This document shows positions 4,112 to 40,070 of a DNA stretch of 64,000 bases, piece by piece; position 1 is the stretch's first letter, and every line of letters starts with the position of its first letter. A program made the translations under genes and the position numbers. The DNA lies in the IMG/VR virus record IMGVR_UViG_3300030105_001626, positions 1 to 64,000 of that record; one strand, given 5' to 3'. Under the pieces are notes generated by a model. That model saw only the letters and a program-made list of their open reading frames with translations, did no database searches and had not been told where the DNA came from. The stretch is from a virus.

Positions 4112-4582
4112 CTACTTTCTTGGTGAACTTCGGCTATATCCATTGGATTTAGGTGATGAGTTATTATAAGTAATGGTGTCCGGTTTTGATATAAGATTAT
4201 CTTTCCTTATTCGACAAGTGACCCAATCATTATAGTATTCGTGTGTAACTAGAGCATCTCGTGTAAATATCTCGTACGTCTCGAAATAAGATAGTTCTGA
4301 ACGAGTCTTACATAGATGTAGAATTTCTCTCGTAAAATGTTTCTTACCAGCCTTCTGTACATCTTCTTTGATTACTTTGTTTGAACCCCAATATTCTTCC
4401 CAATCAGACTTCACTCTAATTTTTTTCTTCTTACCTTTTACTTGTTTTCTAGAAGCCTTGGTAAAAAACTTCTTACCTACATACTTTCTATTATTCTGTA
4501 AGTTGGTGATTAGGTAAACTATCCCAAAATACTCACCAACATTTTCTTCAGTAAATTCTTTACCTCTAAATGTCCAATTCAA
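4112..4582 (-). CDS. GIY-YIG endonuclease (Seg-like)
   Basis: The N-terminal segment GIVYLITNLQNNRKYVGKKF is the GIY-YIG signature (here GIV-Y and YVG). It is followed by a basic insertion (KKKKIRVKSDWEEYWGS) and the conserved Glu-bearing helix (LSYFETYEIF) of this nuclease fold. At 156 aa it resembles free-standing T4 Seg-type homing nucleases, which cut related phage genomes and promote their own spread. It sits alone among small genes with no intron visible beside it. Confidence 0.85.
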   Translation of the reverse strand: MNWTFRGKEFTEENVGEYFGIVYLITNLQNNRKYVGKKFFTKASRKQVKGKKKKIRVKSDWEEYWGSNKVIKEDVQKAGKKHFTREILHLCKTRSELSYFETYEIFTRDALVTHEYYNDWVTCRIRKDNLISKPDTITYNNSSPKSNGYSRSSPRK

Positions 4583-4800: not shown

Positions 4801-5217
4801 TTATACTGCAACAACTGGAATAGATATTTCCCTTTGTGACTTTTTCTTTTCATAATCAGCCAAGGCACCTTTAATGGCATCTTCAGCTAAAACTGAACAA
4901 TGTATTTTAACTGGCGGCAAAGCTAGTTCTTCTACTATGTCCATATTTTTAATTTCTTGAGCTTGCTCAACAGATTTACCCTTGAGCCAAGTTGTAACAA
5001 GACTACTTGAAGCTATAGCTGAACCACATCCGTATGTTTTGAATTTAGCATCTTCTATAATTCCAGTGTCTTCATTAATTTTTATTTGGAGTTTCATTAC
5101 ATCACCACAAGCAGGAGCGCCAACCATACCAGTTCCTACTGTCGGGTCATTTTTGTCCATTGAGCCCACGTTTCTAGGATTCTCATAATGGTCTAATACA
5201 CCTTTACTATAAGCCAT
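4801..5217 (-). CDS. iscU: IscU-type Fe-S cluster scaffold
   Basis: IscU assembles [2Fe-2S] clusters from iron and IscS-supplied sulfur. All key features are present: Cys37 and Asp39 (GAPACGDV), Cys64 (TYGCGSAIAS), the LPPVK motif at 100-104 that the HscA chaperone recognises, and His106-Cys107. The length (138 aa) is near the host-type 128, with a short unrelated tail after the conserved domain. A strong AAGGAG site precedes the ATG. ErpA-like, NrdB, thioredoxin and NrdA follow upstream on the same strand, which suggests support of host Fe-S assembly during nucleotide synthesis. Confidence 0.92.
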   Translation of the reverse strand: MAYSKGVLDHYENPRNVGSMDKNDPTVGTGMVGAPACGDVMKLQIKINEDTGIIEDAKFKTYGCGSAIASSSLVTTWLKGKSVEQAQEIKNMDIVEELALPPVKIHCSVLAEDAIKGALADYEKKKSQREISIPVVAV

Positions 5218-5218
5218 T

Positions 5219-5278
5219 TTACTTCTCCTTTTTTCTCCGTGTCTTTCTCTTTGTAACTGTTTTTTTTCTTCTAGGCAT
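5219..5278 (-). CDS. 19-aa very basic mini-ORF
   Basis: The ORF encodes MPRRKKTVTKRKTRRKKEK, 12 of 19 residues Lys or Arg. Its ATG overlaps the ErpA stop (TAATG), and its end contains the ribosome binding site of IscU. It may be a translated coupling peptide or simply a purine-rich leader; the sequence alone cannot tell. Confidence 0.3.
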   Translation of the reverse strand: MPRRKKTVTKRKTRRKKEK

Positions 5279-5610
5279 TATACTGCGAAACTACTTCCGC
5301 ATCCACATGAAGATTTAGCAACTGGATTTGATATCTGAAATTGTTCTGCCATTAGAGTTTTAGTATAAGCAACTGTTGAACCTTCTAGATATTGACTAGA
5401 GTGTGCATCGACAATAACTTTTAGTTCTGTGCCTTCTAAATCTAATACAGTAGCATCTTCTTCAATCTTGGATTCCCATGTAAATCCATATTGAAACCCT
5501 GAGCATCCGCCACCCTGTACATACATTCTGAGACCTTTTATATCGGCATCGGTTTCATCCGTATATAGGTCCATAATCTTGTCAATAGCGGACTGTTCAA
5601 TGGTTATCAT
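5278..5610 (-). CDS. A-type Fe-S carrier (ErpA/IscA-like)
   Basis: A-type carriers receive clusters from IscU and pass them to target enzymes. The three cluster-binding cysteines are visible: Cys36 (GGGCSGFQYG) and Cys102, Cys104 (SSCGCGSSF) near the C-terminus. The length (110 aa) is normal for the family. The fold pattern (MITIEQSAIDKI start, LRMYVQGGGCSG) is complete with no truncation. It lies directly upstream of iscU, so the phage carries a scaffold and carrier pair but no desulfurase or chaperone in this window. Confidence 0.9.
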   Translation of the reverse strand: MITIEQSAIDKIMDLYTDETDADIKGLRMYVQGGGCSGFQYGFTWESKIEEDATVLDLEGTELKVIVDAHSSQYLEGSTVAYTKTLMAEQFQISNPVAKSSCGCGSSFAV

Positions 5611-38474: not shown

Positions 38475-39005
38475 TTAAAAGTAATCGCCAATTCCACCAC
38501 TTAAAGAACCAGTTTGAACTGGCTTTTCTGCAGGAGTTTCTACCGGTGCTTTTGGTCCACTTCCCATAGAATATCCACTTTCATCTTCTACTGGATATGA
38601 TGATTGTTTTGTTTCAAATTCCCAACCTTCTTTTACAAATTGTTGAAAGTTTGGTGGTGTCCATGTTGTAGGTTTTAGAATCTTACCATCTTCTCTCTTT
38701 GTTACCAATCCAGTTTCTTTATTAATCTTAATTAAATTATTTGCAGCACCTTCTTTCCAGATACCATCAACATTTAATCCTAATGAATTCATGTAGCCAA
38801 GAATAACCCATATTGAATCAAAACAAGCATCAATGATTTCTGGTTTATCGCCAATAGCCATGCTTGTGTGTAATTCTGCAATCTCTTCTTTTATAAGATT
38901 ATAATATAGGTCAGATTGTGGTTGATTAACCGTTGTTGTGGTTTGTCCTGCAGCTTTCATAAAGGTCTTTACATCTTTATTAAAATTTGTGATTGCTTTA
39001 GTCAT
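38475..39005 (-). CDS. MazG/HisE-like NTP pyrophosphohydrolase
   Basis: The N-terminal 130 residues show the all-alpha NTP pyrophosphatase pattern: EEIAEL then EIIDACFDSIWVILGYM, with metal-binding Glu and Asp residues. The segment NNLIKINKETGLVTKREDGKIL follows as in related phage proteins. The enzyme would hydrolyse nucleotide triphosphates to monophosphates, tuning nucleotide pools. A disordered, proline-rich C-terminus (residues 140-176) is added. MazG-type genes are common in marine phages. Confidence 0.75.
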   Translation of the reverse strand: MTKAITNFNKDVKTFMKAAGQTTTTVNQPQSDLYYNLIKEEIAELHTSMAIGDKPEIIDACFDSIWVILGYMNSLGLNVDGIWKEGAANNLIKINKETGLVTKREDGKILKPTTWTPPNFQQFVKEGWEFETKQSSYPVEDESGYSMGSGPKAPVETPAEKPVQTGSLSGGIGDYF

Positions 39006-39490
39006 AATATTTTCCTTGATTTATAATATTTTTTCATTCCTTCTGATATCTTAGTCTTTGTTTCGTCACTATGCCATTCTAGTTCTTTTGCCTTTTGATT
39101 AGCAACACGAGAGGCACGATTGTTTCTAGCGTGTTCGGCAGTTCTTACTTTACCACTTGCAGACTTAGACATTTTTCTTTTGGTCTCTTCAGAATGTTTT
39201 TTGCCAATCTTACTTGCAATCATTCTAGCTTTGCCTTCTGGTGACATTCTATTTTTCATACTCCCACCAATTGAGCGTGCCATGAAAAGCGCCTCGTCCT
39301 TATTCATTTGACCTTTTAGCATATGCCAGGCCATAAAATCTTCTTGTTTTCCATGTTGTTCGTATAATTTCTTATGAGCGAGACTATGGTCTTCAACTGA
39401 AAGTTCTATAAGATTGGATGGTTCGTCTGTTCCACCCATGTGCTTAGGTATTATGTGATGTTTATGTTTCATACATCTATTTAGTAGCAT
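39002..39490 (-). CDS. HNH endonuclease next to an intron-split gene
   Basis: The N-terminus HKHHIIPKHMGG, then NLIELSVEDHSLAH, is the HNH nuclease fold with metal-binding histidines. Two C-terminal NUMOD3-like segments follow (KHSEETKRKMSKS; HSDETKTKISEGMKKYYKS), which bind DNA. The gene starts 31 bases past the pqqA terminator and reads in the same direction. This is the layout of collaborative homing, in which a free-standing nuclease cuts an intron-less target to help a neighbouring group I intron spread. The start may be Met1 or Met7. Confidence 0.9.
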   Translation of the reverse strand: MLLNRCMKHKHHIIPKHMGGTDEPSNLIELSVEDHSLAHKKLYEQHGKQEDFMAWHMLKGQMNKDEALFMARSIGGSMKNRMSPEGKARMIASKIGKKHSEETKRKMSKSASGKVRTAEHARNNRASRVANQKAKELEWHSDETKTKISEGMKKYYKSRKIL

Positions 39491-39520: not shown

Positions 39521-39543
39521 AAAAAACCCTCTTGCGAGGGTTT
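39521..39543 (-). terminator. Rho-independent terminator after pqqA
   Basis: Minus strand: stem AAACCCTC, GCAA loop, GAGGGTTT (39543-39524), ending in a run of T to 39521. It lies 63 bases after the pqqA stop codon and before the HNH gene, so pqqA ends in a transcript of its own. Confidence 0.9.
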
Positions 39544-39605: not shown

Positions 39606-39955
39606 TTATCTATTCATAACATACATAGTCACTTCAACGTAGTGGTGGCAGGCGTTCCAGAGTATTCGTCTTTTTGCCTGTTGCCTTGTTATCGATGTGG
39701 CTCTTTATCCTCACCTTCAATATATCACTATATTGTCCAGACTATATCATCAAGACTTGTTGTCTTGCCGGGCACTCGTGTCATCTTCATCACTGTTCTA
39801 GTGGTATGATGTTAGTCGTTGAACCTTCTCATAATCCCTTATGAGCTTGGATGCTGATTGTCTCGAAAGATGTCCCAGCAGTTCACCCGGTTTTAATTGG
39901 GCCTAAATCAAATTAACCCAAAACGCATTTCAGTTGCTGATGGAGTTGTCCACAT
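39606..39955 (-). CDS. pqqA: PqqA, PQQ precursor peptide, split by a group I intron
   Basis: PqqA is the peptide whose conserved Glu and Tyr are cross-linked (by PqqE with PqqD) and cut out to make pyrroloquinoline quinone, a cofactor of periplasmic dehydrogenases. Exon 1 is 39955-39916 (MWTTPSATEMRFG plus the first base of the next codon). Exon 2 is 39637-39606 (FEVTMYVMNR, stop TAA). The joined 23-aa product has the usual length and the Glu15-x3-Tyr19 motif. AAGGA lies 9 bases before the ATG. Without splicing, translation would stop two codons after the exon 1 end, before the functional motif. No pqqB-E genes are seen in the window, so host enzymes would be needed. Confidence 0.9.
39638..39915 (-). 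ncRNA. group I intron (278 nt) in pqqA
   Basis: Minus strand, 5' to 3'. Exon end TTGGGT pairs with internal guide GGCCCAA, leaving the required U-G pair at the splice site (P1). P3: CCGGGT (39890-39885) with GCCCGG (39773-39768). P4: TGCTG with CAGCA. P6: CTCATAA with TTATGAG. P7: GTTCAACGACTA (39824-39813) with GATATAGTC (within 39748-39737), the conserved R and S elements. P7.1: CATCA with TGATG. P8: CAAGAC with GTCTTG. P9: CAATATA with TATATTG. The intron ends in G at 39638. The extra helix between P7 and P3 places it in the subgroup IA type seen in T4 td. It has no internal ORF. Confidence 0.92.
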
Positions 39956-40033
39956 AGTATTGATTCCTTTTTAAAAAGTTATATTAAAGAACCAGGTCAA
40001 CAGAGAGTATTTCTACAAAGTCTGCCTTGAGAT

Positions 40034-40070
40034 TTAACAAACAATTTCTATTTGTTAAAGGTATTTTATA
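40034..40070 (-). promoter_or_regulatory. candidate promoter and 5' hairpin of pqqA
   Basis: TATAAAATA (40070-40062 on the minus strand) is close to the T4 late consensus. TTGCTTTT lies 13 bases before it, resembling a T4 MotA box. An 8-base inverted repeat (TTAACAAA at 40058-40051 with TTTGTTAA at 40041-40034) would form a hairpin near the mRNA 5' end. The remaining leader up to the ATG at 39955 shows nothing else I can name. Confidence 0.5.

Follow-up and report, generated by a model that had tools for sequence, protein, structure and literature searches.

How did a gene of only 23 codons, which encodes the precursor of a bacterial cofactor, come to be interrupted in a phage genome, and can it still serve the metabolism of the host? 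These questions are raised by a stretch of 64,000 nucleotides (hereafter the window; positions 1 to 64,000 of IMG/VR record IMGVR_UViG_3300030105_001626), taken from a virus record 77.6 kb in length. The cofactor is PQQ, and its peptide precursor PqqA is consumed once per PQQ. In the window, pqqA lies in a T4-like replication block together with gp44-like, clamp loader A, RegA, Hsp20 and M15 peptidase genes and is followed by an HNH gene, past which are encoded a PRA-PH (MazG-like) protein, DUF6561 and a DNA polymerase that is 49% identical to cyanophage gp43.

The gene occupies positions 39955-39606 of the minus strand and consists of two exons and an intron. Exon 1 (39916..39955, minus strand, 40 nt), which is supported by the sequence, Pfam and NCBIfam, starts with the ATG at 39955 and encodes MWTTPSATEMRFG and extends one base into codon 14; the intron is inserted after that base (39916). 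Exon 2 (39606..39637, minus strand, 32 nt), recognized from the sequence and from exon patterns, encodes FEVTMYVMNR followed by TAA and bears Glu15 and Tyr19. Without splicing, the reading frame meets a stop two codons past MWTTPSATEMRFG and ends in MWTTPSATEMRFGLI, while the spliced product is the 23-aa peptide MWTTPSATEMRFGFEVTMYVMNR. This peptide matches the PqqA profiles of Pfam (PF08042; 41.3 bits, 1.4e-10, cut-off 21.1) and NCBIfam (TIGR02107; 38.5 bits, cut-off 20), and in shuffled windows the exon-like patterns are expected 0 times by chance. A Shine-Dalgarno-like AAGGA (39965..39969, minus strand), read directly and found also in the aligned leaders of relatives, stands 9 nt before the ATG, and a consensus scan places an intrinsic-terminator-like hairpin 3' of the gene (39524..39543, minus strand). 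An initial annotation, made from the letters of the window, had already proposed a pqqA gene split by a group I intron. Its boundaries (39955-39916, 39915-39638 and 39637-39606, minus strand) proved exact, and its identification of PqqA holds, as the profile search it had suggested gave matches above both curated cut-offs, the relatives agree, and the Glu15 and Tyr19 it had pointed out are both found in the spliced product. It overlooked the HNH gene, which lies outside its coordinates, as well as the intact relatives of the gene and a leader RNA.

The intron (39638..39915, minus strand) is 278 nt long, lacks an open reading frame of its own and ends in the final G. Scanned alone, the small region that contains it matches Rfam Intron_gpI (RF00028) with 65.3 bits and E 1.9e-16, above the gathering score of 50; a default scan of the whole window at the gathering threshold gave no match and thus missed it. 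The intron may resemble the td-like subgroup IA2 of phage T4. The internal guide sequence GCCCAA (39897..39902, minus strand) pairs as P1 with UUGGGU of exon 1 (39921-39916), with a U.G at the splice site, and the P10 strand UUUAG (39903..39907, minus strand) pairs with UUGAA of exon 2 (39637-39633); both helices are paired in 100% of cells. A scan of IMG/VR revealed the same split at the identical site in 13 further contigs, 11 of which (L140 among them) contain the complete split gene. Their introns measure 231-278 nt and fall into two groups with differing sequences, and those of L129 (70.0 bits) and L130 (95.8 bits) match the Rfam group I family independently of the window.

To examine the structure, nine distinct introns were aligned together with the adjoining exon ends. 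In the classical group I fold, 99.6% of cells are paired and 16 pairs have changed on both sides, a level of covariation reached in 0/500 shuffles, and pairing drops to 33-43% once the helix partners are slid. The U.G of P1 at the 5' splice site, the final G, P10 and the P3/P7 pseudoknot are present with all helices paired; covariation is seen in P1, P3, P6a, P8 and P9, whereas P7 is invariant. The pairing of P10 with exon 2 occurs in all aligned introns. P1 is the most telling helix, for the relatives vary at the third base of the Gly13 codon and the guide base changes along with it (G-C, U-A, A-U). On the side of the exons, all split alleles with a full exon 2 splice to an intact PqqA with open frame, Glu15, Tyr19 and stop, and E15 and Y19, the E-x3-Y residues of the PqqE cross-link, are present in every complete spliced allele that was read. 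Because of this structure and exon conservation, the intron, which is inserted just before the Glu15 codon, is predicted to remove itself from the pqqA mRNA. The group I intron of the initial annotation is thus upheld by the Rfam match, the relatives and the covariation.

Directly downstream of the split gene lies a free-standing NUMOD3/HNH gene (39002..39490, minus strand; likely true start ATG 39472). Its product matches NUMOD3 (PF07460, 2.9e-7) and HNH (PF01844, 1.8e-4) of Pfam above the cut-offs and PHROG 655 'homing endonuclease' with 9.2e-21, and in an alignment of its homologues (A2) both the start and the HH...N...H residues are conserved, so that we regard it as a putative homing endonuclease. 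The same gene follows split pqqA in L129, L130, L132-L136 and L140, and intact pqqA in L071 and L097, while L131, L137 and L138 contain the intron without the HNH gene. When viral contigs were searched with the HNH alignment, pqqA was found beside the gene in 27 of 77 related loci, in either orientation, and was undetected nearby in the remaining 50. The pairs of HNH gene and pqqA extend to large contigs (221-355 kb) and to very different phages; in a 229-kb phage contig (L279:3093-3227, minus strand), a convergent HNH gene comes after two tandem intact pqqA genes. In L006 and L055, an intact pqqA with Leu18 is adjoined by a gene of a second HNH family (HNH_3, PF13392). The phage of the window itself encodes a second putative homing endonuclease, a SegE-like GIY-YIG protein (4112-4582, minus strand).

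Four natural states occur among the contigs: intron and HNH gene, intron only, HNH gene only, and neither. L035 has neither and L129 has both. Over 4,064 nt downstream these contigs are 99.975% identical and in 600 nt upstream they have 2 differences, yet there are 8 in the 72-nt pqqA, and exon 1 of L129 equals that of L132. Because the flanks are near-identical while pqqA is divergent and exon 1 is that of L132, exons, intron and HNH gene appear to have moved together; they differ between L035 and L129 as a single block, as recent homing accompanied by co-conversion would produce. Another such pair is the window and L138, which are 98-99.8% identical, the HNH block being absent from L138. We propose that the free-standing HNH enzyme cuts intronless pqqA at the intron site and that repair from a carrier would copy the exon along with the intron and the endonuclease gene, a process known as collaborative homing, with the intron shielding the carrier's own pqqA from the cut.

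Carriers of the HNH gene that lack the intron would escape the cut through changed codons around the site. Among intact pqqA clusters of the EMRFG type, a residue other than Met at position 18 occurs in 6 of the 8 that have the HNH gene vs 3 of the 89 that lack it (Fisher 2e-6), an association possibly inflated by shared ancestry and by the way in which the loci were found; two of the three exceptional clusters without the HNH gene have a member of the HNH_3 family next door. L279 and L285 contain the HNH gene and the standard amino acids, and at the site they use the rare synonymous codons GGG TTY GAA GTC ACG. Together these patterns strongly suggest that codons 12-18 of pqqA contain the HNH target, and the altered target sequences of the intronless carriers seem protective. 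It could be argued instead that the intron is a neutral, immobile passenger and the HNH gene an unrelated hitchhiker whose target is not pqqA, which would suit the three contigs with an intron only and the 50 HNH loci without a pqqA detected nearby. We consider this unlikely, as it fits poorly with the adjacency of the two genes in 27 loci from very different phages and in either orientation, with the variation of intron and HNH gene as one block between near-identical phages, and with the altered site codons of intronless carriers.

Intact pqqA was found in at least 119 IMG/VR contigs, in T4-like and in several unrelated phage neighborhoods. A tblastn search of a phage collection located intact PqqA in nine records of cultured Methylophilales/Methylophilaceae phages (P19250A, Venkman, MEP301, MEP401, MEP402 and four Melnitz), a count that does not include MEP431-434, HIM624-A and Venkman EXVC038S, which are in the taxonomy and were not among the matches. 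The same search found PqqA in one uncultured podovirus. A pqqA assigned to 'Acinetobacter phage MD-2021a' (CAKLQF020000010.1) was excluded, as the contig carries ppk, pqqB and pqqC, with pqqB/pqqC downstream of pqqA, and is most likely bacterial. In the phage records that were viewed, pqqA is unannotated or hidden under a small opposite-strand ORF; in Melnitz-1 (MZ577095.1, 74848-74943), for example, what is annotated over intact pqqA is a small hypothetical ORF that runs the other way. A motif search of the IMG/VR viral contigs for PqqA of the DLRIG type, which belongs to non-methylotrophs, gave no match.

The same PqqA motif occurs in host genomes, and among the matches listed nearly all have Methylophilales titles, the rest being generic betaproteobacterial or unclassified. 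The commonest phage PqqA peptide is also the commonest host PqqA peptide. We infer that the host of the window phage belongs to the Methylophilaceae and is probably marine OM43. The initial annotation had considered the gene a candidate auxiliary metabolic gene and had advised looking for the other PQQ genes in candidate hosts; a search for PqqE found it above the cut-off in 9 of 10 host genomes examined, and together with the pqqA of cultured phages and the host-identical peptides this leaves the idea well supported. With phage PqqA, the PqqB-E of the host would be able to go on supplying the methanol dehydrogenase cofactor while infection proceeds; no methanol dehydrogenase was seen among the window ORFs profiled. 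Host genomes have 1-12 copies of pqqA, with 12 in Methylotenera mobilis 13 (G018), 6 in Methylophilus methylotrophus (G019) and usually 3 in marine OM43. Since each PQQ uses up one PqqA, gene dosage may plausibly explain the multiple host copies as well as carriage by phages. The window also contains genes for iron-sulphur assembly of the IscU/NifU_N (4801-5217, minus strand) and IscA/HesB types (5278-5610, minus strand), and a link of these to PQQ is conceivable because PqqE is an iron-sulphur radical SAM enzyme. That the hosts own several copies, so that one more is not obviously limiting, would also suit a different role of phage PqqA, either as a regulator or as a decoy that occupies PqqE/PqqD and blocks PQQ synthesis by the host. 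Such a role is improbable, however: many of the phage peptides equal host PqqA letter for letter, and the two residues that are cross-linked are retained, whereas the loss of Glu15 or Tyr19 would be expected in a decoy.

A further link between phage and host is found in the 5' UTR of the gene. The leader RNA of pqqA (39993..40035, minus strand; 54.8 bits with model R1) consists of CUCAAR, a covarying 6-bp stem and YGAYCUG. In a pattern search of 2.46 Mb of phage and host loci, for CUCAAR, a stem of 5-6 bp and YGAYCUG ahead of a Shine-Dalgarno sequence, 31 of 31 matches lay directly upstream of pqqA. The stem is paired in 100% of cells, with a covariation score of 0.72 vs 0.31 in shuffled alignments and 0/500 shuffles as high, although most of the sequences behind these statistics were selected by requiring the stem. 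Of 120 Methylophilaceae genomes, 14 gave a match to the covariance model, each exactly one and always before a tandem pair of pqqA genes; these 14 genomes measure 1.2-1.4 Mb. The model also matches the window once and, among 89 other viral loci, L039 once, where by its coordinates the match is just upstream of pqqA. Besides the window, the leader loci are L154, L157, L212, L217, L232 and L341-L354. Rfam scans of the window and of the leader region gave no match for the leader RNA, and the Rfam matches near the motif were dismissed as being at chance level. The leader suggests a tie of the window phage to OM43-type hosts and a regulated production of PqqA. More tentatively, the leader may represent a regulatory RNA class of marine methylotrophs that is new, perhaps a riboswitch for PQQ or a methylotrophy signal, and that was captured by phages with the gene; a single phage gene would then combine a regulatory RNA from the host, a self-splicing intron and an endonuclease target. 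That the split pqqA is a dead gene with a non-splicing intron and relic exons is scarcely credible, since in all alleles with a full exon 2 the spliced frame is open and Glu15, Tyr19 and the stop are retained. No sequence lacks the pairing of P1 or of P10, the covariation in P1 involves an exon position that is synonymous, and the leader RNA and terminator have been kept.

Taken together, comparative sequence evidence makes it highly probable that this pqqA functions as an auxiliary metabolic gene in a T4-like methylotroph phage and has been invaded by a mobile intron that homes in collaboration with the HNH endonuclease. pqqA would then be the second auxiliary metabolic gene, after psbA, to be parasitized by an intron-endonuclease pair, and the natural contigs seem to catch the transfer of the intron almost in the act. 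The gene is widespread in methylotroph phages and invisible to gene callers, as it has 23 codons and is sometimes split. Such wide carriage would make the supply of PQQ a general target of phages of methanol-oxidizing marine bacteria, and the leader RNA offers a testable regulatory element common to host and phage.

Phage pqqA itself has already been reported once, in the Lake Baikal virus VP_266, for which PqqA was proposed as an auxiliary metabolic gene (PMC7678222). VP_266 thus has a virus-encoded PqqA and a Methylophilaceae host in common with our phage; unlike the window, it has no reported intron or endonuclease. VP_266 also encodes methanol dehydrogenase (PMC7678222). The cultured phages P19250A, Venkman, MEP301, MEP401, MEP402 and Melnitz contain pqqA of the same type, but in these the gene is intact, intronless and, where viewed, not annotated as pqqA. 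Published accounts of MEP301 and MEP401/402 do not mention pqq, and the Melnitz publication names PQQ solely as a medium additive. The intron, its association with the endonuclease, the wide occurrence of the gene and the leader are unreported in the literature searched, which took in a minority of the subscription journals. The pqqA introns have the core P3-P9, the U.G at the 5' splice site, the final G and P10 in common with the group I introns of RF00028, among which they are set apart by their short length (231-278 nt), the absence of an internal ORF and their location in pqqA. The closest parallel is the psbA intron of cyanophage S-PM2 with the endonuclease F-CphI, where it was shown that the intronless allele is cut and that the intron is protective (PMC6083498, PMC5931967). 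In both systems a T4-like phage has an auxiliary metabolic gene that is split by a group I intron and adjoins a free-standing homing endonuclease gene, both have intronless relatives, and in both the intron interrupts the endonuclease target, as demonstrated for F-CphI and inferred for pqqA. They differ in the interrupted gene, which here is a 23-codon cofactor precursor, and in the enzyme, as F-CphI belongs to the DHHRN/Endo VII family whereas the neighbor of pqqA is a NUMOD3-HNH protein by Pfam. Unlike in psbA/F-CphI, some intronless carriers here seem to be protected by codon changes.
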